From: Actinostola sp. cb2023
Lineage: Eukaryota > Cnidaria > Anthozoa > Actiniaria > Actinostolidae
Assembly (NCBI GenBank): GCA_033675265.1
Contig: JAUJYZ010000745.1
Span: 15,001 to 79,000, forward strand
Reading direction: 5' to 3'
Length of the DNA: 64,000 nt
In this document: piece after piece, positions 12,355 through 63,403 of the stretch
How positions within the stretch are numbered: position 1 is the first letter of the stretch
How the letters are laid out: each line of letters opens with the position of its first letter
Position numbers and translations under genes: made by a program
The notes under the pieces: model-generated
Told to the model about the DNA's origin: nothing
What the model saw: the letters and a program-made list of their open reading frames with translations, nothing else
The model's database searches: none

Positions 12355-12456
12355 TTCATGAACGCATCCATACCATTCAAATGCAAGCATTGTAGTAACT
12401 CATTTGTACAGAACAGTAATTGTAGAATGCACGGATCAACTCGTGTAGTATTGTAG
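12041..12456 (+). pseudogene. Frameshifted 3' end of the zinc-finger gene
   Basis: At 12041-12049 the linker repeat is 17 instead of 18 bases (run of seven A), a single-base loss. In the next frame three more fingers continue to about 12360. A second loss then removes a linker, and a partial finger with no second His ends at TAG 12454-12456. Two independent indels suggest decay, but the first sits in a homopolymer and could be a sequencing error. If it is, the real protein has 18 or 19 fingers. Confidence 0.7.
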
Positions 12457-20643: not shown

Positions 20644-20990
20644 TCTTCTTTGACTTGGCGACTGAAATCTTAGTGCAGAAAGAAAGAAATTAGTACGTAT
20701 ATGACTGATTTGAAATTCAAACAGAAGTTCTATTAGAACTCCCAGGTTTCTGTCGACAATTTAAAACTATTATCGCACCTAGTTCACAACCTTCCGAACC
20801 ACCGTATGATAATCATGTTTATCTTGCCGCCATTAGACCGAGTAGGCTACTGCATGGATTTCAAGCTGTTCTTGAGCGAACTACTCTAATTGAACTCATT
20901 ATCATACTAACCTCACAGATAGAGTGTTGAACTGGCAGTCTGTTTGCGAAAACTGGATCTTGTTAAACTCAAACACGCATGGTAGCTTCT

Positions 20991-22955: not shown

Positions 22956-24464
22956 CTACAGAACAAATTGACAACACTTGTATTCATAACGAACTTTAGA
23001 ACCATTTTTACCACCATTTCTGCGGAGAACAAAACTCGACAAAAAGTGTTTAGCGGGGCAATTCAAGCGATGTCTGTCCAAATACATGATTGGTGCATTA
23101 GAATAGGGTTGCCATTCAGTCACCATGTTACGGCATGTCACGTGAGCATTGTTCATCCTTCCTTGGAGGTTCACAGTTCTGGATTCTACTATTCGTACTT
23201 TTCCTGAAAGAGACTAAGAAAGAATGGAATCGATAGTTATCGAGATGTTTTGCGAGAGTAGAGTAACTTGAAACGGCCATGGCTACCTTGCATAATGAGG
23301 GTTTATCATGTAATTTCAAATCTCATAGGACAAAAAATGATTATTATAGCTGGAAAGGGCTCGTTGAAATAAGTAAAAGTGTGCAGTTTGGAAAAGATCG
23401 CTTCACAAATTACGAAGATATGAATTTTCAAAAATCTAAATTTTATATGAAAACCTTTGAAAATTTACGCTTCGAGGCAACTCTTGCCTCCAACTGCCTG
23501 AAAGGTTTTCATCCAAAATTTCGATTTTTGAAAATTCATATCTTCGCAATTTGGGAAGCGATCTTTTCCAAACTTCACATTTTTACTAATTTCAACGAGC
23601 TCTTTCCAGCTATGATAATCATTTTTTTTTGTCCTATGAGTTTTGAAATTACATGATAAACCCTCATTGCACAAGCTCTCCTACTCATTGGTAATTAATC
23701 AAGAGACGATTGTTTACAATGATTACATATGAAATTTCTCTTCACATCCACAATCGATCTACGATTGCTTTGGACGAACCGAATAGTCACGTACATATAA
23801 TAATAATAATAATAATAATAACTTTATTAACGTGTCATGTTTTCTAGTTTACAAGAAACTAATTGGAGACACCTATCTACCCCACCCATTAAAATATCCC
23901 TATATATGGTCTACTGAGTTATTTTCCCGTTAAACCTTAGCTTCTTAGCTAACCCACCCAACTTTTTTCCTGTATCATTGAGACTGACAACGATTACCTG
24001 GTAGTTGCGTTGTGAGCTGGTGATCAATCGCCTTGTGGTGTAGATTTGTCTCTTCAGTTCATTCACCATATTGGTTACTTTGCCAAGGAGTTCACTCAAT
24101 GTAGATCTCTTCTCAACTTCTGATGAAATAAAAGGAAGTCAGATTTCATGTCCTATCAGTAATGAATAGTAGTTTATTTCCGATGTGGTCAAGGCTTAGC
24201 AAGTATGTCCATCACGAGAGGTACAATTACAACTAAAGAATTTCGTGACCAAAAAAAACACACAATTTGAACAAGACTGACACGTGGAAAGCCGACAACT
24301 TTCACTAGCACTGAAATGCATGGCTCTCCCTTTAGTTGAGAGTCAAAACTTTTAAGATCTATTAAACGTTTCGACTCACCTGCGTCCATGACGTCTAGAG
24401 GAGCGCAACAACAGCAACCAAATAGGAAAGAAAAAGCGATGAAGAGGAGTAACGTATGATTCAT
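22956..24464 (-). CDS. Secreted Cys-containing protein, tandem copy B
   Basis: Exon 1 24380-24464, exon 2 23998-24119, exon 3 22956-23213; lengths 85, 122 and 258, exactly as in copy A. The signal peptide differs at one residue (LFI for LFV). The exon 2 donor reads CAG|GTAATC because four bases (GTCA) are missing relative to A. The phase is unchanged, so splicing should still give the same protein. Exon 3 differs by a few residues (NMVTEWQ; RRNGGKNGS). AATAAA at 22874-22879 (minus). Intron 2 contains a roughly 380-bp fold-back not found in A, C or E. Confidence 0.75.
23289..23671. mobile_element. About 380-bp fold-back in intron 2, copy B
   Basis: Arms contain AATGAGGGTTTATCATGTAA, TTTCAAATCTCATAGGAC and AAAAGATCGCTTC, with complements. 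The related element lies at the same position in copy D (29864-30230). Confidence 0.75.
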
Positions 24465-24807
24465 TCTTCTTTGACTTGGCAACTGAAATCTTAGTACAGA
24501 AAGAAAGTAATTAGTACGTATATGATTTCAAATTCAAACAGTAGTTCTATTAGAACTCGCAGGTTTCTGTCGACAATTGAAAAATATTATCGCACTAGTT
24601 CACAACCTTCCGAACCACTGTATAATAATCATGTTTATCTTGCCGCCCTTAGACCGAATAGGCTACTGCATGGATTTCAAGCTGTTCTTGAGCGAACTAC
24701 ACTCTAATTGAACTCATCATCATACTAACCTCACAGATAGAGTGTTGAACTGGCAGTCTGTTTGCGAAAACTGGAGCTAGTAAACTCAAACACGCATGGT
24801 AGCTTCT

Positions 24808-29533: not shown

Positions 29534-30924
29534 CTACAGAACAAATTGACAACACTTGTATTCATAACGAACTTTAGAACCATTTTTACTACCATTTCTG
29601 CGGAGAACAAAACTCGACAAAAAGTGTTTAGCAGGACAATTCAAGCGATGTCTGTCCAAATACATGATTGGTGCATTAGAATAAGGTTGCCATTCAGTCT
29701 CCATGTTACGGCATTTCACGTGAGCATTGTTCATCCTTCCTTGGAGGTCCACAGTTCTGGATTCTACTATTCGTACTTTTCCTGAAAGAGACTATGAAAG
29801 AATGGAATCGATAGTTATCGAGATGTTTTGCGAGAGTAGAGTAACTTGAAATCCATGGTCACTTTGCATAATGATGGTTTATCATGTAATTTCAAATCTC
29901 ATAGGACAAAATGATTATCATAGCTGGAAAGAGCTCGTTGAAATAAGTAAAAGTGTGAAGTTCGGAAAAGATCGCTTCTCAAATTACGAATATATGAATT
30001 TTCAAAAATCGAAATTACTTGGAGGCAACTCTTGCCACCGTGCTCTTGCCTCCAACAAAGGTTTTCATCCAAAATTTCGATTTTTGAAAATTCATATCTT
30101 TGCAATTTGTGAAGCGATCTTTCCCAAACTTCACATTTTTACTAATTTCAACGAGCTCTTTTCATCTATGATAAGAGTTTTTTTTTTGTCCTATGAAATT
30201 TTAAATTACATGATAAACCCTCATTGCACAAGCTGTCCTACTCATTTATGATTTTACACTTGATAATTAATCAAGAGACGATTGTTTACAATGCCGGATT
30301 ACATCATTTCTCTTCACATCCACAATCGATCTACGATTGCTTTGGAAGAACCGAATAGTCACGTACATATATGGTCCACTGAATTATTTCCCTTAAACCT
30401 TCTTAGCTAACCCACCCAACGTTTTTCCTGTATCATCGGGACAACGATTACTGACCTGGTAGTTGCGTTGTGAGCTGGTGATCAATCGCCTTGTGGTGTA
30501 GATTTGTCTCTTTAGTTCATTCACCATATTGGTTACTTTGCCAAGGAGTTCACTCAATGTAGATCTCTTCTCAACTTCTGATAAATTAAAAGTCAGATTT
30601 GATATCTTATCAGTAATGAATAGTAGTTTATTTCCGATGTGGTCAAGGCTTAGCAAGTATGTCCATCACGAGAGGTACAATTACAATTAAAGAATTTCGT
30701 GACCAAAAAAACCCATAATCAGTTGAACAAGACTGACACGTGGAAAGCCGACAACTTTCACTAGCACTGAAATGCATGGCTCTCCCTTTAGTTGAGAGTC
30801 GAAAATTCCTTTTAAGATCTATTAAACGTATCGACTCACCTGCGTCCATTGCGTCTAGAGGAGCGCAACAACAACAACCAAATAGGAAAGAAAAAGCGAC
30901 GAAGAGGAGTAACGTACGATTCAT
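29534..30924 (-). CDS. Secreted Cys-containing protein, tandem copy D
   Basis: Exon 1 30840-30924, exon 2 30456-30577, exon 3 29534-29791. The signal peptide begins MNRTLLL and has PLDAMDA where the others have PLDVMDA. The exon 2 donor is CAG|GTCAGT as in A. The exon 3 acceptor reads TTTCATAG instead of TTTCTTAG, still usable. AATAAA at 29451-29456 (minus). Intron 2 has the same fold-back type as copy B. About 570 bp upstream of this gene's start the unit is split by the 7.5-kb retrotransposon at 31522-39000. The TATA box and first exon stay on the gene's side of the insertion, so expression may be intact. Confidence 0.75.
29864..30230. mobile_element. Fold-back in intron 2, copy D (as 23289)
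   Basis: Same TTTATCATGTAATTTCAAAT arm and GATCGCTTC block as in copy B, partly diverged in the centre. Confidence 0.7.
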
Positions 30925-31272
30925 TCTTCTTTGACTTGGCGACTGAAATCTTAGTGCAGAAAGAAAGTAATTAGTACGTATATGTATGATTTCAAATTCA
31001 AACAGAAGTTCTATTAGAACTCGCAGGTTTTTGTCGACAATTTAAAACTATTATCGCACTAGTTCACATCCTTCCGAACCACCGTATGATAATCATGTTT
31101 ATCTTGCCGCCCTTAGACTGAGTATGCTACTGCATGGATTTCAAGCTGTTCTTGAGCGAACTACACTCTAATTGAACTCATCATCATACTAACCTCACAG
31201 ATAGAGTGTTGAACTGGCAGTCTGTTTGCGAAAACTAGAGCTTGTTAAACTCAAACACGCATGGTAGCATCT

Positions 31273-32098: not shown

Positions 32099-33430
32099 TC
32101 AAGGGAAGGCGAGAGAAAGATTTCCGAGGTCGTTATTGGCGCAGAAAATGCTGGCAGTAGTAGCTGCTTTAGGTGCGTTGCCTTGTGATGTGGCCATAGT
32201 GCTATCGGCTAAGGTCGTGGCCACACGATTGGCGTTCATAACCTTCCCGATCTGGGAGTAATATTCTGGCATTTCAGAAGAGCGCCAGCCTATATGTCTC
32301 GCAACGTCGTCAGAGGAAACGCCCAGGAGGGATAATGTGATGGCACATCCACTGCGAAAGCTGTGCATAGTCTCCCCGCTGTCGATATTCAGATCCTTAA
32401 GATGGCGAGATAATCTATTGGCGACCGTGGAACCAGTGAATGGGGATGTTGAAACCTCACCTTTGCTATTAAGTGACCTGAATAGGTAACCATCTCTCGG
32501 GTTGACCGACATTAAATCGCAGAGTTTAACATAGAGTTCTAGGTTGGCAACCGGGCAGATGGTACGGTTCTGGCATCTCTTAATCATAAAGGTGTTAGAG
32601 GGTCCCCCTCGCAAGGTTTTGCCAAATGTGTGGCGAAATAAGAGGCCCTCCTGGTTGGGGAGTGAAGTGACTTCTTTGGTTAATACTCTCCCTAAGTCTG
32701 ATGCTCTGTTACCGGAGTAGAACTCAAGGCAAAAGAAAGCAAGATCTCGAGCGAAGATGTAACGTTGGCTAGGATTAGAGTTGGGGGCGAATACCAGTGT
32801 TCTGAGATGGGTGCATAACTTCGTCAGCTTGTCAAAGAAAAAAGGGACAGCTTGTCTAGGGATGATTCTAGCTTGGGCTTGTTCTTCTCGGATAAGGCGG
32901 AGATATGATTTGACGCTGTGGTGGGTAGCCGGGTTGCCCACACCCAGAAGGTTGTTCCACTCCCCATCACGGCCAGCTTCACAGAAAACGGAGCGTAGTT
33001 TCCCTATTATGCTGTCGACAGTTCCTGCTGCTAGTCTGGTAGGACAAGGACAAGACGTTTTCTTAGAGTAACCAAAGTGTCTGCACGCAGGAGTGTGGAC
33101 TTTGGTCTTTCCACCTTTATCTTTCCAGACTAGAAACCTAGCAATGTCCCGGGGCGCGGCGGAAAGCAGGGATTTGGCTGTTGGGAGCGAGAATAAAAAA
33201 TGTTGCAGTTCTTTCTGAAGACTACTTTTCTGCTTCTGATAGGGTTTACTCTCCCGAACCGAACCCAAGGCGTCTAAGCGCTGGTCTAATTGCGACAGGT
33301 CGACATCTATCTTAGGGGGAGTGGACTCGGTGTGGATGCGTTGGCGCTTGTAACCACATTGTTGACAAAAGGAGAAATGTGCATCGTTGGGGGATACGAG
33401 CAATCTGGGCAACGCACTGCCGGACACCAA
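32099..33430 (-). CDS. Tyrosine recombinase of the retrotransposon
   Basis: Open frame of 443 codons (first codon not ATG). The catalytic set is visible: Arg242 in GNRASDLGRV, His356 and Arg359 in HSFRSGC, His379 in ARHIGW, and Tyr390 or Tyr391 in MPEYYSQIG. This is the R-HxxR-H-Y signature of tyrosine recombinases, which would integrate the circular DNA intermediate. Near the N-terminus FCQQCGYKRQ looks like half of a zinc ribbon. The partner CPDCSY lies just upstream in another frame, separated at a run of five C (about 33391), so a 1-bp shift probably breaks the N-terminus. A possible acceptor (CTCCTAG) precedes the frame. It ends 161 bp before B1. Confidence 0.9.
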   Translation of the reverse strand: MVSGSALPRLLVSPNDAHFSFCQQCGYKRQRIHTESTPPKIDVDLSQLDQRLDALGSVRESKPYQKQKSSLQKELQHFLFSLPTAKSLLSAAPRDIARFLVWKDKGGKTKVHTPACRHFGYSKKTSCPCPTRLAAGTVDSIIGKLRSVFCEAGRDGEWNNLLGVGNPATHHSVKSYLRLIREEQAQARIIPRQAVPFFFDKLTKLCTHLRTLVFAPNSNPSQRYIFARDLAFFCLEFYSGNRASDLGRVLTKEVTSLPNQEGLLFRHTFGKTLRGGPSNTFMIKRCQNRTICPVANLELYVKLCDLMSVNPRDGYLFRSLNSKGEVSTSPFTGSTVANRLSRHLKDLNIDSGETMHSFRSGCAITLSLLGVSSDDVARHIGWRSSEMPEYYSQIGKVMNANRVATTLADSTMATSQGNAPKAATTASIFCANNDLGNLSLAFP

Positions 33431-33653
33431 AGTCTAGGAGTCTCAACGAGAGGCTGAGGAAGATAGACGGAAAGAGGGAACGTGAGTTGGACACACATTA
33501 AAGGAGGACACTAGAGAGTCTAAGAAGGAATTTAATAACAAAAATACATGAGTATCAAACAATATAGAAGGAGAAATATAGTACTTGACATGAATCTCTT
33601 CTTAGTTATGATATTGCGTGATCTAAATATTGTTACAAATAGAACAAACAGTG

Positions 33654-35787
33654 TCACTTAGAGGGGATAATCCTGAAAAGCCAGAGGTCCCATTGAAGAG
33701 GGCGGGGCTCCCACGGATCTGGACCCGACTTGGATGGAAACAGAATGACCGACTTGTCGCCCTTGGAACCAAGCTTGAAGGAAGCAACAGCTCTTCGTTG
33801 AAGCACGGGCCACCAATATTTCCTTGGACAGAGCTCCGGTACGACGATGGAAAAGGAACAGTCTTGGGGGAGCAGGAATCTCAACAGTGGGCCCACCAGG
33901 ACAAAAGGAGGGAAGACGAATGCGTTTTCGTAGGGAGCTATGAATTGAGAAAAAACGTTTGTTCCCGACGACTGACGGCATGGGAAAGGCGAGAAAAACC
34001 GTAGAGGGCGCCCGGATGGATCGTGGCGAACATTAGATGGCAGAGCCATCAGATCGATAGTGTGGGGTCCAAAAGTTTGATCAATCAGTTTCCAAGATGG
34101 GTCACTTAGCTTAGCATCGAGATCGGAGAGGACACGGGATGGACTGTCAGCAGGGTTGTTCCTAGAAGGCACGTAAGACAGGATAAACCAAGGTTCCTGG
34201 ATGCACAGAACTGGAAGAGAGACTTCATAGCATCAGAGATGGCGGGACATTTGGAGACTTGCTTGTCCCAGCTTGACACGAGTACCTTATTGTCCACCTG
34301 CACATCAACTCGGGTGTCACGACAGTTATTGACGAGGTTCTCGAGGGTGCGCACAAGGGCTAGGGATTCCTTTGTAGCAATCGGAAACTTACGCTCGTTG
34401 GCATCCCAGTAACCACGAGTCTGGAGGGTAGGTTGTCCACGTTGAAACACGCAGCCACCCCATGCCAACCGTAATTAGAGGCATCTGAAAATAACTGAAC
34501 TTGATAGTGATACTCTGATCTCCAAGGCAAGAACTGTTCCCACGTGTCAAGAAAACGCCAATGGAGGATCTCTTGGCGGAGAGGAAGTGAAAGGGAAATT
34601 TTGCTTGATGAGGAACGACTTGCGCTAGAGATAGCTTTGTAGACAGCATTCGTGAAAAGTTTGGCTGCAGGAACTAGTAATGAAAATGATGTAGTCTTGC
34701 CAGCAAACTTCTGTAGGTTTTTCAAAGACACCGATTTGTGCTTCAAGATGGATTCACGTAGTGTAGCGAATTTAACACGCTTGTCTTGAGGCAAGATGAA
34801 AGCCTGACGCTCTGAATCACAAATGTACCCCAGAAACCGAACCGCGGTGGTCGCCTCCAGGGAGCTTTTCTTAAGACCAATGAAGTATCCTAGCGAAATA
34901 AGAGTGGAGCAGGCGATGAAGGCTGCCATCTCTGCGAGCTGACGGCTGGAGAAAGATGTAGTGAAGGGGCCGTAGGGGAGGCGAAGTTGTCCCACGTGAC
35001 GGTCGTCGATGTACTGGGAACAGGGTACACCCAGGGATCTTATGAAGTGGGTGGCGGCCAACCCAATGTTGTGATACACATAGGCACTTGCCTTCCAGCC
35101 AAAGGGAATAGTAGTGAAGGTGAAATACCAATCCAACCATTGAACGCCGAAGAAGGTAAAACTGCGAGGGTGGAGGCGCACGTGATCGTAACCACTCTTA
35201 TCATCAAAAGTGGAAATGGCCTGGGCCACGTAACGGATAAGATCCGTGATATAATCGAGTGTGAACGGACAGTCTTTAATCCAACAATTAAGGAAGCGTT
35301 CGTCATGGCACATACGAGGTTTAGACGATTCGATTGTGATGGGCATAACTAAATGTGGAGGGCGACAAGCTCCAACTCTTCCCACGATACGAAGGGAACC
35401 ATTGGATACCCTCTCCATGATAGTATGGGAAATAAGGTCTGAGAATGCTCCACACGAAGACGAAGTGGGGAATATCATCTTGGGAGGAGTGTCAAAACAG
35501 TACCTCTTGCCTTGGAATAACCCATCAAAAGGGGCAAAAAACTCGGACACGTCGACACCGTCTGAAATAAAAGAAAGGATCTCGTCCTTCTTGGGGTAGT
35601 GTTGCAGAACATGTCGCCACTGTGGCAGGCAAGAGCTGAGATTCCCCGCGATAAACGAGTCTGGGTCTCGAAAACGAAGCATGTGGACTGAGGCGTGGGT
35701 TTGGCCATTTGCCACCATGGAGACGGACGGGAGTGGTCCGGCCCAGCTAGTGGGGTTGCCCTCCCAGTTGCACCAATCTTCCCTCAC
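33654..35787 (-). CDS. Reverse transcriptase-RNase H, frame-broken
   Basis: The first 475 codons (34360-35787) hold RT motifs: FDDKSGYDH near residue 194, IPFGWKASAYVYHN near 227, and the active-site box QYIDD at 258-262, followed by the connection region. RNase H starts at FSDASNYGW (433-441). The frame then shifts near 34430. WDANERKFPIATKESLAL and VQVDNKVLVSSW continue in a second frame. A second shift near 34200 brings SYVPSRNNPADSPSR and FGPHTIDLMALPSN in a third frame ending at 33654. Upstream, TCTTCTTCCTAG at about 35845 is a good acceptor followed by the open frame, so the RT may be reached by splicing. The shifts may be mutations or sequencing indels. Confidence 0.85.
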
Positions 35788-36255
35788 TCTGAAGTGATGC
35801 GAGGCATCCTCACAAAAATCTGAAAAATCCTTAGTCGAAATCTAGGAAGAAGAGGGAAGGTAAATTAGGATGGGATCCTATATGGGAGAGGGCACTAGAA
35901 AGGAAACTCCCCACTAGCTAAGCCGGACCAGGAACCCGCCCGAAGGCAAGTTATAGGGTTGGTATTTAGTTTACCCTTCTGGTCACGGCTAAGAAGTGGG
36001 AAATAAACGAGGAATTATAAATGGAATCAAGGGACAAAAGAAACGAGTCTCACACAAACAAGTTTATTGCATGTCGTACCTACTGGATGACATGATAATA
36101 AGTAGCACGCTACAAGCAAAAATATAAGGACCAAAGACAATAGATACTTTATCGTGCTCACTCAGTAGTAACTCAGTATTAAACCGTATGAAAAAAACAA
36201 CAACACAGACCTAGGAAGAGAACGATTGCACCTTAATTACAACTTCTTGGTCTGA

Positions 36256-38770
36256 CTAATTACGCTCCTGTTTATTCCTGCTGCAATTCCTGGCTATATG
36301 GCCTTTACGGCCGCAATTGTAGCATGTGGGTCCGCCACGCTGCTGACCACGCCAGTAAGGGGCGGCCTGGCTCCTTGCATCTTGGAGACGAGGAATCCAG
36401 GGGGGTGCACAAGATTTTAGCGCTTTTTGAATCTCCTTCGAGATTGCCACCTCCTCCTGTGCTCCCAGCAACTTCAGCAGCAGCGGCTGCAAGGAAGGAC
36501 TGGCCAGCAAAGAGCGGGTTTGCCGCAATATGATGCCGTACCGGGAGGCATCATTGCACGCTTTCTCTCTGGAAACATCCACCAGGTGTTCTAAGGCCGC
36601 TACAGTGGCATGCGGATCAAATAAAGCCTGTGGGCGGGACAAAAGCTCCCTTAAATGACGAAGGGAGCTGTCCACGGATCCAGAGTCTTGAAGTTGACGC
36701 AATGCAGCTACTTCTTTTTTCAGATCATCAAGCTAAAAGGAACATAATACCCCCGTTAATAAGCAGCTTAAAAGCTAGGCCATTCGCTGCATAATCGCAT
36801 CCTCGCACGGGATGTTAACTAATTGCCAGTAAATATTCAGGACATGTGAGTAGTTAGCGTTACCTGACTTCCGTTTGGGAAATAAATCTAGTCAAATTTA
36901 CGCGGACGACAAGGCTGACTCCTAGCTCGATCGCTTTTAACACCGGCACATAGCCTTGCCAACCTCCCTGCACACGGTGCTATTCTCTCCCCTTCGGTAT
37001 GGAAATGTCTCTGCCGACACACGGCGTCTCTGCCGACACACGGCTGCCGACACACGGCTGCCGACACACGGCTGCCGACACACGGCTGCCGACACACGGC
37101 GTCTCTGCCGACACACGGGCGTCTCTGCCGACACACGGCGTCTCTGCCGACACACGGCGTCTCTGCCGACACACGGCGTCTCTGCCGACACACGGCGTCT
37201 CTGCCGACACACGGCGTCTCTGCCGACACACGGCGTCTCTGCCGACACACGGCGTCTCTGCCGACACACGACTGCCGACACACGGCTACTGACATACGGC
37301 GTCAAGTAAATAAATAAATAAATAAATAGATAAATAAATAGATAAATAAATAGATAAATAGATAAATAAATAGATAATAAATAGATAAATAGATAAAAAT
37401 AGATAAATAGATAAATAGATAAATAGATAAATAGATAAATAAATAAATAAATAAATAAATAAACAAACAAACAAATAAATAAATAAATAGAGAAATAAAT
37501 AAAATTAAAACTGAGATAAATAGATGGGTAAGAAAATAAATAAATAAATAATAATAATAGTGTTTTTTTTAAATTTAATTTTTATTATTTTATGTTTTAT
37601 ATAGCGTAGAAATTCACAGGCCAGCTCAAATACGCTTTACAATCACAAGTACTAAAAATACCTAAAAACAAAAAAAAAATTCCTATAAATTAAAAACTAA
37701 CTAAATAGATAAATAATATAGAAAACTTCCCCTAGTACTGCAGAGGAGGCAGTGATGCCTACAGCATACCAGAACTAGCCGACACAAAGTTTACTGACCG
37801 AAAACTGACAGACGACATACGTACAAAAAGACGCTAATATGTAGGACAAAGGTATCCCAAAAGTAAAAAAGTAATTAAGCGAAACAAAAGGGGGCGGATG
37901 ACTACTAACAAAGGGAAGAAAAAGCGCGCTAACGAAGGAAGCAAACTGAGAAACGGTATTTCCCGGAGGAATAAAGGGACGCCACAAAATGCTAAACTAA
38001 GCAAAAATGCAAGAACGCTAAGAAAATACGGCCCCGAAAATACGTATAGCGACGAAAGACGACGGGGGGAAAAAAAACACACAAAAAAAAAAACACAACC
38101 ATAAAACTAAAGGACTCAGACCCCGAAGCCAAAATGACGAGATAAAGCCTAAGTAACGTTCGCAAAACAGTTAATATATGCTAACTGTGTGAGACGCGCG
38201 TAGATAGATAACATACAATACTACTACTACTACTGCTACTAAGTATTACTACTACTAAGAAGCGACGCGAAAGGGCAAGGGTTAACTAACGAATGAACGA
38301 GCAAGAAAGATAAGTACCTCATTCAGGTTATTGACTGGTTCTGGTTGAATATCACCGGCTTGAGGTACAGCAACTGGAGCCGGTGCAGCGGCTTGAGGTA
38401 CAGCAACTGGAGCCGGTGCAGCGGCTTGAGGTACAGCAACTGGAGCCGGTGCAGCAGCTTGAGGTACAGCAACTGGAGCCGGTGCAGCGGCTTGAGGTAC
38501 AGCAACTGGAGCCGGTGCAGCGGCTTGAGGTACAGCAACTGGAGCCGGTGCAGCGGCTTGAGGTACAGCAACTGGAGCCGGTGCAGCGGCTTGAGGTACA
38601 GCAACTGGAGCCGGTGCAGCGGCTTGAGGTACAGCAACTGGAGCCGGTGCAGCGGCTTGAGGTACAGCAACTGGAAGTGCAGCGGCTTGAGGTACAGCAA
38701 CTGCAGGAACGTTCTGTGCTTGTTGTAGACCTGCTAAGTCTTGAGGATTGGGGTTCTGAGGAGCAGCCAT
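36256..38770 (-). CDS. Gag-like protein with intron
   Basis: Exon 1 (38318-38770, ATG at 38768-38770) begins MAAPQNPNPQDLAGLQQ and then has about ten 11-residue repeats of the type PQAAAPAPVAV. It ends at a strong donor GAG|GTACTT in phase 0. Exon 2 (36256-36732) follows CCTTTTAG and opens LDDLKKEVAALRQLQD, a short helix. It ends with a CCHC knuckle, CYNCGRKGHIARNC, a nucleic-acid-binding feature of Gag proteins. Joined in phase 0 this gives about 309 residues. Intron 36733-38317 (1.6 kb) contains a GC-rich minisatellite and an AT-rich microsatellite. Splicing is inferred from consensus sites and matching phase. Introns have been reported in other tyrosine-recombinase retroelements. Confidence 0.7.
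37009..37295 (+). repeat. 14/19-bp minisatellite in the Gag intron
   Basis: Core CTGCCGACACACGG repeated about 15 times, with or without a CGTCT spacer. The translations on both strands are repeat artefacts. Confidence 0.95.
37300..37560 (+). repeat. (TAAA/TAGA)n microsatellite in the Gag intron
   Basis: Mixed TAAATAAA and TAAATAGA repeats. Confidence 0.95.
38356..38690 (-). repeat. 33-bp coding minisatellite in Gag exon 1
   Basis: About ten 33-bp units keep the Gag frame and encode a Pro/Ala/Val repeat. A shorter variant lies at the 38665-38690 end. Confidence 0.9.
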
Positions 38771-41120: not shown

Positions 41121-42115
41121 CTACAGAACAAATTGACAACACTTGTATTCATAACGAACTTTAGAACCATTTTTACTACCATTTCTGCGGAGAACAAAAC
41201 TCGACAAAAAGTGTTTAGCAGGACAATTCAAGCGATGTCTGTCCAAATACATGATTGGTGCATTAGAATAGGGTTGCCATTCAGTCTCCATGTTACGGCA
41301 TTTCACGTGAGCATTGTTCATCCTTCCTTGGAGGTTCGCAGTTCTGGATTCCACTATTCGTACTTTTCCTGAAAGAGACTAAGAAAGAATGGGATATTTC
41401 TCGCGAGAAATCGCGAGAGTAGAGTAACATGAAAGCCACCGTAGCCCAACTCATTTATGATATCACACTTTCTAATCAAGAGACGATTGTTTTACAATGA
41501 TTACATTTCTCTTCACACCCACAATCTACGATTGCTTTGGACGAACAAATAGTCACGTACAGTTGGTCCACCGAGTTATTTCCCTTAAACCTTCTTAGCT
41601 AACCCACCCAACGTTTTTCCTGTATCATCGGGACAGCGATTACTGACCTGGTAGTTGCGTTGTGAGCTGGTGATCAATCGCCTTGTGGTGTAGATTGTCT
41701 CTTCAGTTCATTCACCATATTGGTTACTTTGCCAAGGAGTTCACTCAATGTGGATCTCTTCTCAACTTCTGATAAAATAAAAGAAGTCAGATTTGATGTC
41801 TTATCAGTAATGAATAGTAGTTTATTTCCGATGTGGTCAAGGCTTAGCAAGTATGTCCATCATGAGAGGTACAATTACAACTAAAGAATTTCGTGACCAA
41901 AAAAAAACACAATTTGAACAAGACTGACACGTGGAAAGCCGACAACTTTCACTAGCACTGAAATGCATGGCTCTCCCTTGAGTTGAGAGTCGAAAATTCC
42001 TTTTAAGATCTATTAAACGTATCGACTCACCTGCGTCCATGACGTCTAGAGGAGCGCAACAACAGCAACCAAATAGGAAAGAAATAGCGATGAAGAGGAG
42101 TAACGTATGATTCAT
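41121..42115 (-). pseudogene. Tandem copy E of the secreted protein gene, frameshifted
   Basis: Exon 1 42031-42115, exon 2 41648-41768, exon 3 41121-41378. Exon 2 is 121 bp instead of 122: TAGATTGTCTC near 41692 replaces TAGATTTGTCTC. This shifts the frame within the helical segment and prevents the Cys-containing exon 3 from being read correctly. Exons 1 and 3, the splice sites, the TATA box and AATAAA (41035-41040) are otherwise intact, so the loss is recent or a sequencing error. The signal peptide reads FIAISFLFG. Intron 2 is about 270 bp with no inserted element, so it shows the unoccupied state of that intron. Confidence 0.7.
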
Positions 42116-42463
42116 TCTTCTTTGACTTGGCGACTGAAATCTTAGTGCAGAAAGAAAGAAATTAGTACGTATATGATTTCAAATTCAAACAGTAGTTCTA
42201 TTAGAACTCCCAGGCTTCTGTCGACAATTTAAAACTATCATATCGCACTAGTTCACAACCTTCCGAACCACTGTATAATAATCATGTTTATCTTGCCGCC
42301 CTTAGACCGGAGTAGGCTACTGCATGGATTTCAAAGCTGTTCTTGAGCGAACTACACTCTAATTGAACTCATCATCATACTAACCTCACAGATAGAGTGT
42401 TGAACTGGCAGTCTGTTTGCGAAAACTGGAGCTTGTTAAACTCAAACACGCATGGTAGCTCCT

Positions 42464-45885: not shown

Positions 45886-47107
45886 GCGTTTAAACAATAG
45901 ATTGTTTTGATGTGACGTCATAGTGGTATAGGGCAATTCCATTATCAATGCCATTGTTTGACTTGTTGGCGGCACACTGGCCCCTATCCTAAATGTCTGG
46001 TATTACACACAAAAGTAAATAGCCCGCTATAAATACCAATAACTTACCCAACGGTCGTTTTTAACTGACACTTGTTTAATCGGATTAAAAGCCTGTCGCA
46101 GTGAAACTGACAGATCAGTGACTTCCCCGTTCGAATGACTCCGCCAACTGTGGGGGCAAAAAGTTCGTTAAACATAAACCGCCCCGTGATTCCTAATCCA
46201 AACAGCTTATCCTTAATTCCTCTAGGGAACTTGAAACGTCGAGTTTCTTGACCCCTTCTTGACATCCACTACTAAAGCCAAAGCGTTTGCGTGGAAGCGT
46301 GTTTGTTCTTGTCTTTTGAATGACACGCGGCCACACGCTTGGGTCACGTTTCTCGTGATGACAGCCAGTGCTATCTGATCCTACGACCGGTAGTTGTAAA
46401 ACATTAACGGTTGATTCACGAGCGGAACAAAACGTTAGAAATCTTCGAAAGAGCAGCGTCTGTACGTTCACTTTATAAACTGTCATTAGTGTTGCTTTGG
46501 TATCTGATCTGGTTTAACTGCGCTCAGAAGCTAACTGAACGTCTATACAAGTAAGTGTCGCTGATAGCTAGTTCAGATAGTTCATAAACTGAAAGCTGAT
46601 TCAAATTCAAATTGAACTTCCAGAATAACTGAAGCTCACGATGTTCTGCTATACTAAGGCTGCTTTAATACTCTCGATTACCAAAATTGTCGATTTTAAA
46701 ATCGAGAAAAATTAGCCATACGACTGCTTTTGATTTTAAAAACATTAGACGAGATTGTGCATGCTTGGACAGGAAGTCATCGATCGTACAAGTGAATCTA
46801 GAGAGATAAACATTATACTAACTAGTTATGCAGTCATGATAGCTAACAGATTTAGTATTTCTTAAATTTGCTATGGCTCAGAATTTTGATTTTGAGAGAA
46901 ACCATGGGAGTTTTAGTTCTCGGAACCGTTGGTGATTTGACTCGAAACAATTTTAAAAGTGAAACCGGAATAACTGCATGATGGTTATATTCGTATTGAC
47001 GTAACACATTTTCATAATTTAACTGCAGAGATATCAAATGATATTAAAACACTGACTTGACTTTTTAGTTCTGCGTAGTTGGCAGAAATGGGGAGAATAT
47101 ATTGCAA
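45886..47107. other. No gene supported
   Basis: Overlapping minus-strand frames exist at 46044-46486 but have no recognisable domain or signal peptide. Confidence 0.35.
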
Positions 47108-47545
47108 GTGTTGTTATCCTGAAGTTTGGGCAAAAGGGGGAGGGGTGGTTGGTAACCTACACCATACCAGAGCTATATTCCTTGTATATACCATACTACG
47201 GATGGTACAGTATAAGGGAGCCGTCGAGAGACAAATGTTGTTGTCCTGTAGTTTGGGCAAGGGGGAGGGGTGGTTGGTAACCTACACTATACCAGAGGCA
47301 TATGCCTTGTATATATATACTATGTACTACGGATGGTATAAGGGAGCCGTCGCGAGAGACGAATGTTGTTGTCCTCTAGTTTGGGCAAGGGGGGAGGGGT
47401 GGTTGGTAACCTACACCATACCAGAGGCATATCCCTTGTATATACTATATTACGGATGGTATAAGGGAGCCGTAGAGAGACGAATGTTGTTGTCCTCTAG
47501 TTTGGGCAAGGGGGGAGGGGTGGAGCTCGAGGGTAACCTACACCA
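47108..47545 (+). repeat. About 120-bp tandem repeat, 4 copies
   Basis: Each unit has AGTTTGGGCAAGGGGGAGGG, TGGTTGGTAACCTACAC and ACTACGGATGGTATAAGGGA. It ends about 80 bp before the cystine-knot gene. Confidence 0.9.
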
Positions 47546-47625: not shown

Positions 47626-47997
47626 ATGGTGATCAAGACATTGCTTGTTTCAATGAGCGTGGTGGTGTGTCTAACCTCGGTGTACTCTAGAGACCCCTTA
47701 AAAGAAGCTTACGCGAACATCCGTTGTGAACGAGCAGGATACACGATGACAGTACAAGTGCACAACTGCCAAACACAAACCGTCAAGATGAACATTTGTC
47801 AAGGGACGTGCCTGTCTGCCTCGACGCCCACAGGACCTAACTACGACCAAGTGTCTATGTGCACGTGTTGCCAAGTGACTCAGACTGAGACCATCTCGGT
47901 AGGACTGTGGTGCCGCAAAGATCCGAACGATGCTGCGTTATCTAAATACTACCACCCGATACGAAGTGCAACTCAGTGTTCCTGTACGAAGTGCTAA
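47626..47997 (+). CDS. Secreted 11-Cys cystine-knot (CTCK/bursicon-type) protein 1
   Basis: ATG at 47626, 123 residues, one coding exon. An acceptor-like TTTTTATGTTAATCAG lies about 25 bp upstream, so a non-coding first exon is likely. A signal peptide (MVIKTLLVSMSVVVCLTSVY) is followed by 11 Cys arranged C-x13-C-x9-C-x3-C-x16-C-x-C-C-x13-C-x21-C-x-C-x2-C, including CQGTC (the CxGxC knot ring) and CTCC. This matches the C-terminal cystine-knot fold of bursicon, DAN and glycoprotein-hormone-like proteins. The odd Cys number is typical of chains that pair with a partner. AATAAA at 48031-48036. A paralogue lies in convergent orientation at 49665-50507. Likely an extracellular hormone-like or antagonist protein; orthology is not established. 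Confidence 0.88.
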   Translation: MVIKTLLVSMSVVVCLTSVYSRDPLKEAYANIRCERAGYTMTVQVHNCQTQTVKMNICQGTCLSASTPTGPNYDQVSMCTCCQVTQTETISVGLWCRKDPNDAALSKYYHPIRSATQCSCTKC

Positions 47998-48547
47998 ACT
48001 GTTTGAAACTGTTAAAATCGCAATATAACTAATAAAGTAAAATGTATACATGTGTAACTCTTATAGTGCAAACATTGTTGTCGCATATTCTAAACAGTTT
48101 TGGTAGATTGTTCGGGATACTGTTATCAAGCAAGCTCCCGCGCACCTGTCAATGTAAAACAAACCCGAAGGGGAGGGAAGGCACAGGAAAGGGGGGGGGG
48201 GGGGGGGGGAGAGGGGGGGGGAGATCCTCTGCACCATCAAGGAAATCGAGTCACATGCTTCTTTTATCCATCTTGGCAATTCTCACTAACACAATTGAAA
48301 CAAACTCCCACATTTTTCTTCCTTAGTATCGATAGTCAGTAGGGCAGGATTAAAAAATGACCTGCCACATCCACGAGCATCCTTTCAGTATATGGGATTT
48401 CTCCGTACTTTCTAGGGGTTAAAATCGTAGTTTAATTGGTATCGCTTAGGCCGTTTAAACCTAAAACGACCACCGTTAGAGTTATGCCGGTACCTTTTAG
48501 TAGGGTATGTGACCTACTTGTCAGGAAACTGATTTTCATTTAGAATT

Positions 48548-48920
48548 GGTACCTTTATATATAGGGGTGAAAATGTATTGGTTGCCACGCCCACAACGTC
48601 GAGATTCTGGTACCTTTATATATAGGGGTGAAAATGTATTGGTTGCCACGCTCACAAGGTCGATATTCTGGTACCTTTATATATAGGGGTGAAAATGTAT
48701 TGGTTGCCACGCCCACAACGTCGAGATTCTGGTACCTTTATATATAGGGGTGAAAATGTATTGGTTGCCACGCCCACAACGTAGAGATTCTGGTACCTTT
48801 ATATATAGGGGTGAAAATGTATTGGTTGCCACGCCCACAACGTCGAGATTCTGGTACCTTTATATATAAGGGGTGAAAATGTATTGGTTGCCACGCCCAC
48901 AACGTCGAGATTCTGGTACC
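48548..48920 (+). repeat. 61-bp tandem repeat, 6 copies
   Basis: GGTACC at 48548, 48609, 48670, 48731, 48792, 48853 and 48915. Each unit contains TTTATATATAGGGGTGAAAA and TATTGGTTGCCACGCCCACA. It lies between the two cystine-knot genes. Confidence 0.95.
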
Positions 48921-48989
48921 GTTGTTTCCAAAATTTCCGACGACCTTCCCCTCGAGTGCCTTATCACATTGCTACCTTATCACATTGCT

Positions 48990-49096
48990 ACTTAACAATT
49001 AGTCACCAAAGGCGAGGTAAATATCGGTGAATAATAACTGAGACGAAGTCGAGGTTATTATCACTGCTATTCACTGAGCCTGAGGTGACTAATTGT
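48990..49096. mobile_element. About 107-bp inverted-repeat element
   Basis: Starts AACAATTAGTCACC and ends GGTGACTAATTGTT, with inner complements around ATTCACTG and CGGTGAAT. Confidence 0.7.
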
Positions 49097-49098
49097 TT

Positions 49099-49293
49099 TA
49101 GTAGAATTACACAGGTGATTATTTGAAAAAATAAAAATAAATAAGCATTTTAAAGAAAATACATTTTTATTTCATATTTCAAAAGCTGGCAGCCATTTTG
49201 TCAAAATGCTGTAGGTAACTATCGAGAAATAGTCCGAAGTTCTCGACCAATCAGCGCGCTTGATTTTCTATAATCACCTGTGTAATTCTACTA
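49099..49293. mobile_element. 195-bp inverted-repeat element
   Basis: TAGTAGAATTACACAGGTGA at the left and TCACCTGTGTAATTCTACTA at the right. It directly follows the previous element. Confidence 0.75.
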
Positions 49294-49383
49294 AATGTAT
49301 ATATATAGTACTTACTTGATAGAGATTCTAAGAAAATTCTGATCTCAGATTAGTCATATTTTATTGATTGCTTTCTTACAGAC

Positions 49384-49482
49384 ATGCGTATCGAACAGTT
49401 GACTTTACAATACGAAAGAGTGAAACACTTTTATACACAATATGAATTGCTGAATCGCGATCCAATCGACATGCTGAAGTAA
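49384..49482 (+). CDS. Possible short terminal exon
   Basis: The acceptor TTGCTTTCTTACAG ends at 49381. The frame encodes MRIEQLTLQYERVKHFYTQY and 12 more residues before TAA at 49480. AATAAA follows at 49523-49528. The charged helical sequence and good acceptor suggest the last exon of a plus-strand gene, but no upstream exon was found. Weakly supported. Confidence 0.3.
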   Translation: MRIEQLTLQYERVKHFYTQYELLNRDPIDMLK

Positions 49483-49664
49483 ACAACTTTGCCTCTATAC
49501 AAATTGCTGCAATATTGGTTTTAATAAAACTATTATTATTATTATCAATTATTGTAAGGAAAGCTAAGTCCTAGCCAACCAGAGAGAGCCTCGTAACCAG
49601 GCTATTTTCTTCTGGAACGAAGGAGTGGAGCCTGGATACTCGTGTAGATATTTGTGTAGTTCAG

Positions 49665-50507
49665 CTAGCTGCAGGGTGAACAGGTACAACCCGTCGCACT
49701 CTCGACGGCCACCTCGGTGTCAACTCCTGGAGCGCATTTTAAATTAAACTTCTTCCATTCGGTGTCTGATGTTGTACAACAATAACAAAACTGAAAGGGA
49801 AAACAAGAACATTTCTACGTCACGAGAGCTAGAAATTATTTAATAATAATAATAATTTAATTCTTGAAAAAGCGCATTACATATAAATCTCAATGCTCTT
49901 TACAAGTGAGTAAGAAAATATAGAAAATAAAAAAATATAGAAAATATATATAGAAGAATATAGACAAATATAGAAAATTAGCGGTTCCTTGCCATTGGAG
50001 TAGGGAGAGGGGTAGCCTGATGTTCAGACGGCAGGGGATCATGCGCTTTCCTCCTTCTCCCCTCTCACTGCCTACCGTCTGAAAATCAGGTTAGGAGAGA
50101 ATTGGACAAGAAAAAGTTGCCCATAGACAAAAGTATCCCGTTAAAATGTCAATTATGAGTTTTGTTCACAGCAACAATGTCGATTCGAATGCAAAACTTC
50201 TCATTGTTCTTCAAAGTTGGAAATTTGGGAGAGCAGTTGACCGACGTACGCCCCCCTGTGACAGATATTACCCTGACTCATCGATCGCCAAGTATATACT
50301 AACCTTACGGAAAAAAGGTGGATTCGAAAGGGGAAGTACATAGGAACCACACGTGCCCAGACACGCATACACACCCACGTAGTCCGCATCACAGCCTGTC
50401 TTTTCTACCTTCTGCCGAAAGTACTCTGATTTACAATAAACATTGAAGCCATGCGTATAAAGACTAAAGGATACCAATAATATAACTAGACCAATGAGTG
50501 TCTTCAT
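49665..50507 (-). CDS. Secreted 11-Cys cystine-knot (CTCK/bursicon-type) protein 2
   Basis: Two exons. Exon 1 is 50304-50507 (ATG at 50505-50507, donor CGTAAG|GTTAGT). Exon 2 is 49665-49790 (acceptor TTTTCCCTTTCAG), joined in phase 0, 109 residues. A signal peptide (MKTLIGLVILLVSFSLYTHG) is followed by C-x13-C-x9-C-x3-C-x16-C-x-C-C-x13-C-x15-C-x-C-x2-C, with CLGTC and CYCC. Every spacing except one loop (15 against 21) equals that of the convergent gene at 47626, including the 16-residue loop that spans the intron. This confirms the splice model. A cystine-knot hormone-like role is expected; pairing with the 47626 product is inference. A TATA box lies at 50573-50580. Confidence 0.88.
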
Positions 50508-50572: not shown

Positions 50573-50580
50573 TATTTATA
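50573..50580 (-). promoter_or_regulatory. TATA box of cystine-knot gene 2
   Basis: Minus-strand CTATAAATACC, about 65 bp upstream of the ATG, at a plausible distance for a start near 50545. Confidence 0.6.
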
Positions 50581-58102: not shown

Positions 58103-59575
58103 GATGACAGATTTCTTTTTCTCTCGACGATATAGGGTCAAAATGAACGAGACGTCCTCGGACTGATTATACAGATTATACAGGCACGATCAGGACAAAA
58201 TGAACGAGACGTCCTCGGACGCTGATTATACAGGTTGTAACGAAATACATACACATGTATATGATTGGCTACCTCTCTCATGCTGGAATTTGATTGGTTG
58301 TTTGTACATAACTTTTGCGCAACTTTTCCGATTTCGGGCAACTTTTTTTATTTCGAGCAACTTCTTTCTTTCTTACAGTGTGACTTTCAAGGGCAAATGT
58401 TCATACAAATTATCCAATCACATTTGAGTATTTAAACAATAGAAGCAACTTTAGGAGCATATATTTTCTTTATATTATGTAATGATTTGAACAAGAAACA
58501 GTTTTAAATTGTAGAATTCACAATTTGTTATTCAAAACAAATTTGATTAGAAAATTTGATTCAAAATTTGTTTGGGTGGCCTTGGTTGGTGTAGTCGCAC
58601 TGCCTACAAATTAAGCATTAAGCACTAAAATTGGTTTATTTCGCTTTATGGGTCATAATACAGTTTGTAAACAGCATGCAGTGTTCAGGACTGGGTTAGT
58701 GCATTTGGAGTAGTAGTGCATGGGCTGCCTGTGGTTATTTGAAAAGGTGATTCAGGTGGTCAGCGGTTACTTTTCATAGAAGGCATACTAATACATACAT
58801 ACTAATACATACTACTACATATACATATGGAAAGAAAGAGAGAACAGTGGCTGTATGTGAAATGATAAAAAAGGATGAAAAACAGAAAGTAAAAAATAAA
58901 ATGAAATGTGGGTAGAGAGATAGAAAATAAAGGGTACAGGATGATACAGAATATTAAAATCAAAAGATAAAGAATGAATGAAGAAAGGAAATGAAAAATA
59001 AGAAGAAAAAAAATTAAATGTATAAATATTTTGCATAGACAGGGAAGGAGAGACTGTGGCAAAGAGGGGAGGAAGAGGAGGGTGGTAGTGTGAAATTGCA
59101 TTTGCCGCTACAAAAAAGAAAATGTTGTAAATTCCTGTTAACAAGCAATATTATATGAAAAAAAAGAGAAACCGGTTAGAAATATTCCTTTGATTGGGTA
59201 ATTAGCATCTTATTATATATAGTAAATACGAAGCAACATTGTAGCAACTTTAAGATTTTTGGGCAACTTTTGAGCAACTTTCAGAGTTTTGGAGCAACTT
59301 TTGAGCAACTTTCTGAGAAATTTTGAGCATTTTTTTAAACAATTTGGAGCAACTTGTGGACAGCCCTATTTGTACATACATCATACAGCTAGTTCTCATT
59401 TGATTGACAGCTTCTCTCATGCAGTAATTTGATTGGTTGTTTGTACATACATCAGCACCATTTTGTGCTTAAACAGTTGTAGTTTAGCATGTTTAGTACT
59501 GATTTTGCATCTCATTAGATATTTGTATATATTTGTATAAATGTATATACTACAACGTTTCTATAATCAAGTGTA

Positions 59576-61890: not shown

Positions 61891-62161
61891 GATGGCAGAT
61901 TTCTTTTTCTCTCGACGATATAGGGTCAAAATGAACGAGACGTCCTCGGACTGATTATACAGATTATACAGGCACGATCAGGACAAAATGAACGAGACGT
62001 CCTCGGACGCTGATTATACAGGTTGTAACGAAATATATACATGTATATGATTGGCTACCTCTCTCATGCTAGAATTTGATTGGTTGTTTGTACATAACTT
62101 TTGCGCAACTTTTCCGATTTCGGGCAACTTTTTTTATTTCGAGCAACTTCTTTCTTTCTTA

Positions 62162-62415
62162 CAGTGTGACTACACCAACCAAGGCCACCCAAACAAATGT
62201 TCATACAAATTATCCAATCACAATTGAGTATTTAAACAATAGAATCTGCACAAATTTTCAAATTTTCGCTTTAGGAGCATATTTCCACAAGAGTGAACAA
62301 GAAACAGTTTAAATTGTAGAATTCGACATCATTCTGTTATTCAGCGTCACAAATTTGATTAGAAAATTTGATTCAAAATTTGTTTGGGTGGCCTTGGTTG
62401 GTGTAGTCGCACTGT
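62162..62415. repeat. 254-bp fold-back in duplicate 2
   Basis: CAGTGTGACTACACCAACCA and GGCCACCCAAACAAAT at the left are complemented at the right (62380-62415). In duplicate 1 the right arm is present (58560-58596) but the left arm is truncated after CAGTGTGACT. Confidence 0.65.
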
Positions 62416-63403
62416 AAACATTTCCACAAATTAATACAAATTAAACAGGCCAATTAAGCACTAAAATTGGTTTATTTCGCTTTATGGGTCATAATACAGT
62501 TTGTAAACAGCATGCAGTGTTCAGGACTGGGTTAGTGCATTTGGAGTAGTAGTGCATGGGCTGCCTGTGGTTATTTGAAAAGGTGATTCAGGTGGTCAGC
62601 GGTTACTTTTCATAGAAGGCATACTAATACATACATACTAATACATACTACTACATATACATATGGAAAGAAAGAGAGAACAGTGGCTGTATGTGAAATG
62701 ATAAAAAAGGATGAAAAACAGAAAGTAAAAAATAAAATGAAATGTGGGTAGAGAGATAGAAAATAAAGGGTACAGGATGATACAGAATATTAAAATCAAA
62801 AGATAAAGAATGAATGAAGAAAGGAAATGAAAAATAAGAAGAAAAAAAATTAAATGTATAAATATTTTGCATAGACAGGGAAGGAGAGACTGTGGCAAAG
62901 AGGGGAGGAAGAGGAGGGTGGTAGTGTGAAATTGCATTTGCCGCTACAAAAAAGAAAATGTTGTAAATTCCTGTTAACAAGCAATATTATATGAAAAAAA
63001 AGAGAAACCGGTTAGAAATATTCCTTTGATTGGGTAATTAGCATCTTATTATATATAGTAAATACGAAGCAACATTGTAGCAACTTTAAGATTTTTGGGC
63101 AACTTTTGAGCAACTTTCAGAGTTTTGGAGCAACTTTTGAGCAACTTTCTGAGAAATTTTGAGCATTTTTTTAAACAATTTGGAGCAACTTGTGGACAGC
63201 CCTATTCCTATTTGTACATACATCATACAGCTAGTTCTCATTTGATTGACAGCTTAGCAGTAATTTGACTGATTTTGCATCTACATTAGCATATTTTGTG
63301 CTTAAACATGTAATGTATTACTACAACGTTTAGTACAAGTGATAATAAGTACACAAGCATGTAAACAAATTGTTTTAGATTTCATTTTGATGCAGCTTAA
63401 TTA

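Follow-up and report, generated by a model that had tools for sequence, protein, structure and literature searches.

Do two neighbouring genes of a sea anemone, each encoding a small cystine-knot protein with a secretion signal, supply the two subunits of one hormone? The question is raised by a 64,000-nucleotide stretch of DNA from Actinostola sp. cb2023 (hereafter the window; C194:15001-79000, in a genome assembly of 424 Mb and 1,594 contigs), in which two such genes, here called A and B, face each other. A sequence-only reading of the window had proposed a two-subunit hormone locus, citing an odd number of cysteines and shared loop lengths. Our analysis, through Pfam and PDB matches, supports the assignment of A and B to cystine-knot hormone genes of bursicon/glycoprotein-hormone type, whereas the heterodimer stands as a plausible proposal and the reasons first given for it do not discriminate. 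Stronger grounds for a two-subunit hormone than the cysteine count lie in a second pair of genes (A' and B') elsewhere in the genome, in the implied linkage of A- and B-type genes in Exaiptasia diaphana, and in a receptor gene on C1385, a contig bearing the second pair. Our leading explanation, held at about even confidence, is that A and B would be the two subunit types of a bursicon/glycoprotein-hormone-like heterodimeric hormone acting on a type-A LGR.

Organization of genes A and B

The two genes and the elements around them are as follows, in window positions:

47626-47997, plus strand: gene A, one coding exon of 123 codons, with a signal peptide and an 11-Cys cystine-knot domain (A-type)
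47626-47688, plus strand: predicted signal peptide of gene A, cut after VYS, from hydropathy and sequence
47725-47994, plus strand: cystine-knot domain of gene A, Cys1 to Cys11 of the knot frame
48031-48036, plus strand: AATAAA, putative poly(A) signal of gene A, 34 bp past the stop codon
48547-48920, no strand assigned: 61-bp minisatellite of 6 copies, between A and B and belonging to neither gene
49665-49790, minus strand: gene B exon 2, Cys5-Cys11 and stop codon
49791-50303, minus strand: gene B intron, 513 bp, GT..AG, within the Cys4-Cys5 loop
50304-50507, minus strand: gene B exon 1, signal peptide and Cys1-Cys4
50573-50580, minus strand: TATAAATA box, a putative functional element 65-73 bp upstream of the gene B start codon

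The genes are convergent, and the distance of 1,667 bp from stop to stop confirms the separation of about 1.7 kb given in the sequence-only reading. That reading had also held that gene B becomes visible only after the exon at 49665-49790 is joined, and both the coordinates and the predicted join are as given there; the junction reads AAG/GTTAGT ... TTTCAG/T. The strict 11-Cys frame occurs unspliced once in the window, in gene A, and in none of 15 order-1 Markov windows. The encoded proteins, of 123 aa (A) and 109 aa (B), each have a signal peptide of their own, as judged solely by hydropathy. Each opens with a hydrophobic leader and finishes with the last cysteine or very shortly beyond it, with a short N-terminus after the signal peptide and no cysteine past the last conserved one; an extra 12th cysteine in A lies within its signal peptide. 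In the surrounding DNA, a tandem repeat of 125-129 bp (about 3.4 copies; window 47105-47523) ends about 100 bp before the gene A start codon, and an inverted repeat resembling a miniature inverted-repeat transposable element (TAGTAGAATTACACAGGTGATTAT and its complement) was spotted by eye between A and B, at about 49100-49300.

Cysteine frame and family affiliation

The cysteine loops are 13,9,3,16,1,0,13,21,1,2 in A and 13,9,3,16,1,0,13,15,1,2 in B, the frame and its single differing loop (21 versus 15) being just as first described. Over 87 aligned residues, 25 are identical, 11 of which are cysteines. A profile search, named as a check in the sequence-only reading, placed both proteins above the curated cut-off (22 bits) of Pfam DAN, the top family for each (A, 1.1e-8, 35.5 bits; B, 7.4e-11, 42.5 bits); for Pfam Cys_knot, with its cut-off of 24 bits, B passes (27.8 bits) and A falls narrowly below (23 bits). 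The best PDB matches of A were the VWF CTCK domain and 8enb 'Bursicon' (2e-5 each), and those of B were NBL1 (2e-7) and then 8enb 'Bursicon' (7e-7). VWF was the top PDB match of A' as well, and norrin appeared weakly for B and B' (about 0.03), with no norrin row for A. The entry 8enb comprises two chains, 'Bursicon' with 'Cys_knot domain-containing protein', probably a C. elegans pair. We regard the fold family and secretion signal of A and B as well supported at the level of sequence. Since the trees fail to resolve it, 'Bursicon' does not stand as an established family name, and orthology to Burs alpha or beta was assessed against the 8enb 'Bursicon' chain only, whose score is level with that of VWF (for A) or NBL1 (for B).

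The insect bursicon subunits (Burs/Pburs) have an 11-Cys frame with C.CC and C.C..C, and A and B resemble them in this frame, with a covalent dimer expected. The C.CC triplet is kept in A, B, A', B' and a fifth gene, C, described below, and is missing from L029-L032 of the same genome. Identical loop lengths, initially taken as special to the pair, turned out not to be so, since other superfamily members in this genome have nearly the same frame. L034, for instance, has loops 13,10,3,16,1,0,13,15,1,2 and is read as a mucin-type end domain, with TTT-repeat frames upstream that would belong to the same gene. The domains of VWF and norrin, which form disulfide-linked homodimers, share this kind of 11-Cys frame, with near-identical loops in VWF/mucin CTCK domains and norrin, and norrin (NDP) is a homodimeric Frizzled-4 ligand. 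With the 11-Cys frame thus superfamily-wide, neither the odd cysteine count nor the loops in common can serve as an argument for a heterodimer, and we dropped both. VWF/mucin CTCK domains differ from A and B in that they end long multidomain proteins, whereas A and B stand alone.

An Exaiptasia gene model joins A- and B-type genes

The sole protein match found for gene A (1 match among 1 candidate) was the Exaiptasia diaphana model P0001, of 209 aa, which opens with a B-type start (..SKFCQCCKATGTEWKK) and continues with the whole of A, including a signal peptide of its own. P0001 is 64% identical to A over 100% of A, its first part matches B at 45 of 62 residues, and it crosses exactly the gene B exon junction point (..FSKFCQCCKATGTEWKK). 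Gene prediction has probably fused two same-strand neighbours in this model, which would place A- and B-type genes next to each other in Exaiptasia as well, in the same direction there and convergent here; the Exaiptasia orientation is taken from this gene model alone. Read in this way, P0001 supports both the B splice join and A/B linkage in a second sea anemone. Another entry, P0002, contains a piece 99% identical to gene B exon 1 and carries on past the donor into the intron; it was dropped as transcript evidence for B, as it is probably genomic and silent on splicing.

A second pair, gene C and other cystine-knot genes of the genome

Beyond the window, three further genes of this kind were recovered:

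C1090:10089-10463, minus strand: A', second pair
C1090:17024-17374, plus strand: B', second pair
C194:505241-505594: gene C (L038, L040, L041), the fifth single-domain 11-Cys secreted-type gene, loops 13,8,3,16,1,0,13,14,1,2

A' and B' stand back to back, with 6.6 kb between their start codons. C1385 also bears this pair and matches C1090 at 99.0% identity over 17.6 kb, and for this reason the two contigs are taken as haplotigs. The loops of A' are 13,9,3,14,1,0,13,18,1,2 and those of B' are exactly those of B; the B' domain is without an intron. Further B'-type proteins are P0003 (ENA, 97%) and P0004 (JGI, 52%). Gene C lies on the window's own contig, 440 kb from A/B.

Of 31 candidates from a genome search with PF03045, 9 passed the cut-off, including A and, on two contigs, B'; B and A' were absent from the nine, B having split exons and A' reaching only 26.5 bits in Pfam. 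From their cysteine patterns, other matches were read as gremlin/NBL1-like (C1450, C614, C1272) and sclerostin-like (C1142), all without C.CC. The 11-Cys domains on C924 and C1549 were taken to terminate multidomain proteins of mucin- or VWF-like type, on the evidence of TTT-repeat frames upstream in C924 and of the frame alone in C1549. Using A, A', B' and B as queries added A' (two haplotigs) and gene C; together with the PF03045 search, these queries give five single-domain 11-Cys genes at three places in the genome. Within C194, a scan of the first 259 kb found the C-terminal-half pattern in A and B only; looser half-patterns match repeats and unrelated frames as well.

Weak matches of the B query lie at C893:137011-137322 (E 0.003; open frame of 136 aa), possibly a further family member, and at C1486:125244-125438. 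C1395:115404-115520, a match of the B' query at E 0.8, showed no 11-Cys frame on reading and was rejected as a family member.

Grouping of the genes into A-type and B-type

We ranked 17 domains in seven profile tests. A profile of A with its Exaiptasia counterpart placed A' first of 15 (35.4 bits; next 28.0), and one of A' and C placed A first of 15 (39.0 bits). On the other side, B and its Exaiptasia counterpart ranked B' first of 15 (44.8 bits; best non-B-type 32.8), and B' with P0004 ranked B first of 15 (45.1 bits; best non-B-type 37.0). A' also came first of 14 with a profile of A, Exaiptasia A and C, and first of 16 with C alone. Since A and A' retrieve each other in these rankings, as do B and B', each locus likely holds one A-type and one B-type gene. 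Whole-genome searches gave a similar picture: A' retrieved, at E<=1, only itself (two haplotigs), A and C (4 matches from 4 candidates scored), and B retrieved B' directly after itself (5e-10 and 1.5e-9; next 3e-6). Shuffles that kept the cysteines in place gave a z of 7.4-7.5 for A-A' and 6.7-6.9 for B-B'; the four comparisons of A or A' with B or B' came to 2.9-3.9. A 7-row topology test found the grouping of A with A' and B with B' best under all three models.

A series of results weighs against this typing and the heterodimer built on it. C ranked 13th of 15 with the profile of A and Exaiptasia A, and eighth of 14 when A' was added; its shuffle score ties it to A' (8.5) and hardly to A. 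The whole-genome search with B' lists B exon 1 sixth of 9 (E 0.09), after gremlin-, sclerostin- and mucin-type genes. The z of B is higher with NBL1 (10.4), the gremlin-like L030 (10.3) and 8enb (7.5) than with B' (6.7), and that of A with 8enb (7.3) and VWF (7.2) is level with that for A' (7.4). A 15-row tree under a mixture model, with very long branches, a short domain and no cnidarian Burs/GPH (bursicon/glycoprotein hormone) reference sequence, left both A-type and B-type ungrouped, with 0 of 12 inner branches starred. We replaced it with the 7-row test and the profile ranking, which are weaker than a good tree; the 7-row test rejects the two rival topologies under JTT only (approximately unbiased test p, 0.041 and 0.040; LG+G4, 0.097 and 0.257; WAG+G4, 0.056 and 0.137).

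Receptor-like genes on the contig of the second pair

PCEDIMG is the type-A LGR hinge motif of the FSH, TSH and LH receptors. A 20-base motif encoding it, used as a receptor probe, matched the genome once, at C1385:61174-61193, and its reversed control gave 0 matches; the surrounding 401 bp read as the LGR hinge, first transmembrane segment and first loop. In the PDB this fragment matched FSHR (3.9e-25), LHR (2.6e-24) and TSHR (3.3e-24), with the next receptor at 2.3e-12. Insect bursicon acts on a type-B LGR, whereas the receptor linked here is FSHR/TSHR-like. In the genome, 27 of 94 candidates matched the fragment at E<=0.01, and the best two are both on C1385: the fragment itself (C1385:61002-61280, open frame of 838 aa) and C1385:86960-87178 (44%, 7.4e-14; open frame of 649 aa), about 39 and 65 kb from A'. 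The third match, at 7.5e-8, is on a different contig. None of the 27 falls on C194, the contig of A/B, a point that counts against the heterodimer explanation.

The C1090 copy of A'/B' is near the contig start, and the alignment direction puts the receptor region beyond C1090, so that this contig is silent on the linkage. C194, C1385 and C1090 make up 0.26% of the assembly, giving a chance of about 0.003 that one receptor locus falls there, for a coincidence spotted only post hoc; the linkage on C1385 may also be an assembly misjoin. Another receptor probe, GnHR_trans (PF12369), found no match in this genome and none in 14 control genomes either, and is hence uninformative. For Nematostella, two type-A LGRs are reported (PMC9545775).

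Comparison with known cnidarian and bilaterian hormones

Roch and Sherwood (2014; PMC4079206) named the cnidarian Burs/GPH peptides, which have a single cystine-knot domain with the cysteine pattern of bursicon/NDP, a short N-terminus, no N-glycosylation site and no cysteine past the last conserved one. A and B agree with this description in every feature, and an N-glycosylation sequon is absent from all five proteins (A, B, A', B' and C). In Nematostella, the same paper reports two close genes, as an exception, on a scaffold that also carries SOSD. The situation here differs in that there are two pairs, each apparently of one A-type and one B-type gene, and in that one pair shares its contig with type-A-LGR-like genes. 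Four bursicon-like glycoprotein hormone subunits of cubomedusae (PMC6402141) are similar in having 11 cysteines and several paralogues, with hetero- or homodimers proposed; a related disulfide reading, with one interchain cysteine, is given there for cubomedusan and fly subunits. The cubomedusan subunits are described there as transcripts, with no gene arrangement given, whereas A/B and A'/B' are arranged in pairs. The linkage is comparable to that of thyrostimulin GPA2/GPB5, whose subunit genes are linked in bilaterians (PMC4079206, section 11) and whose receptor is a type-A LGR, although the sea anemone proteins differ in being without N-glycosylation sequons.

The genes are therefore of an already known kind, that of cnidarian bursicon/glycoprotein-hormone-like genes, and the novelty lies in two apparently A/B-typed pairs and in the linkage of one of them to receptor-like genes. 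In the literature consulted, mostly non-subscription papers without supplements (including PMC4079206, PMC9545775, PMC6402141, PMC6660194, PMC11087051, PMC10319355 and PMC7460484), no A/B-typed pairs or ligand-receptor linkage are reported for cnidarians.

Heterodimer, homodimer or another function

If A and B are the subunits of a heterodimeric hormone, an ancestral A/B pair would have been duplicated as a unit, and A and B would be produced in the same cells and meet in the secretory pathway. There they would form a disulfide-linked dimer via Cys5, Cys6 and Cys11, the remaining eight cysteines pairing within each chain; the released dimer would activate a type-A LGR, most likely via cAMP, and the neighbourhood of A and B would be maintained because the partners are used together. 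In solved relatives, the bonds within a chain are made by Cys1-4 and 7-10, which leaves Cys5, Cys6 and Cys11 to bond between chains, a scheme that suits homodimers and heterodimers equally. What tips the balance to heterodimers is that unlike types are neighbours at two loci, as in bilaterian GPA2/GPB5. The fuller proposal, that sea anemones have two ancient loci for A/B-typed heterodimeric hormones and that one of these loci is clustered with the type-A LGRs it activates, we put forward tentatively, as a possibility that is probably not correct in all its parts.

The foremost competitor, a real contender though it falls clearly short of even confidence, is that A and B are old tandem duplicates, each forming a disulfide-linked homodimer, and that their linkage is a leftover of duplication. 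Homodimer-forming relatives share the 11-Cys frame, and gene C is unpaired: with no motif match to a partner within 7 kb on either side, it indicates that pairing is not obligatory. Roch and Sherwood (PMC4079206, section 11) judged homodimers the more probable in cnidarians. Yet one A-type and one B-type gene are apparently kept together at two separate loci, and the linkage seems to be kept even though A and B have strongly diverged and to outlast a change of relative orientation between genera, as P0001 suggests.

That one or both proteins are instead BMP antagonists or norrin-like Wnt/BMP modulators is unlikely in our view, despite DAN being the top Pfam family of both, NBL1 (DAN) the best PDB match of B, and NBL1 and the gremlin-like L030 its best shuffle partners. 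In gremlin and NBL1 the 7th conserved cysteine is gone, and in SOSD both the 6th and the 7th (PMC4079206, section 5); A and B show no such loss and retain C.CC, along with A', B' and C. The genes read as gremlin- and sclerostin-like also occupy separate loci of the same genome. Still less probable is that a hormone-type fold was recruited as a secreted effector or a component of venom. One DAN-domain 'thyrostimulin' entry does occur in a cerianthid venom table (PMC7460484), but the few copies recovered by the searches above, five genes at three places with C893 as a possible further member, give no sign of a lineage-specific burst. We give least weight of all to gene B being a spurious splice join or decayed copy: its frame is intact, its splice sites are consensus, the Exaiptasia model runs over the same join and its Pfam match is significant, and P0002, which reads through the donor, has no bearing on splicing if it is genomic.

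Other features of the window

Four similar minus-strand frames (20365-20760, 24189-24527, 30643-31041 and 41837-42178) carry MNHTLLLF or MNRTLLLF and FGCCCCAPLD; they are apparently repeated copies of a secreted-protein exon, the first being without a Pfam match. Pieces of a DIRS-like retroelement occupy 32099-36732 on the minus strand: one frame is of tyrosine-recombinase type and matches the ALOG domain too (4e-28), another, below the Pfam cut-off, is of reverse-transcriptase type, and a third is a zinc-knuckle frame. At 10102-12395, on the plus strand, is a C2H2 zinc-finger gene built of 84-bp tandem repeats, with frame shifts near its end. A local duplication (58319-59355 and 62105-63191) has copies about 3.8 kb apart, with an identical 111-aa frame included.

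Implications for the origin of two-subunit hormones

With their apparent A-type and B-type members, the two pairs point to the subunits for co-expression, and the LGR genes that share a contig with A'/B' suggest the first receptors to try. Paired genes and a linked receptor-like gene open a test of whether two-part hormones are older than the bilaterally symmetrical animals. If the heterodimer reading is true, two-subunit LGR hormones would predate the cnidarian-bilaterian split, or would have arisen independently in cnidarians.

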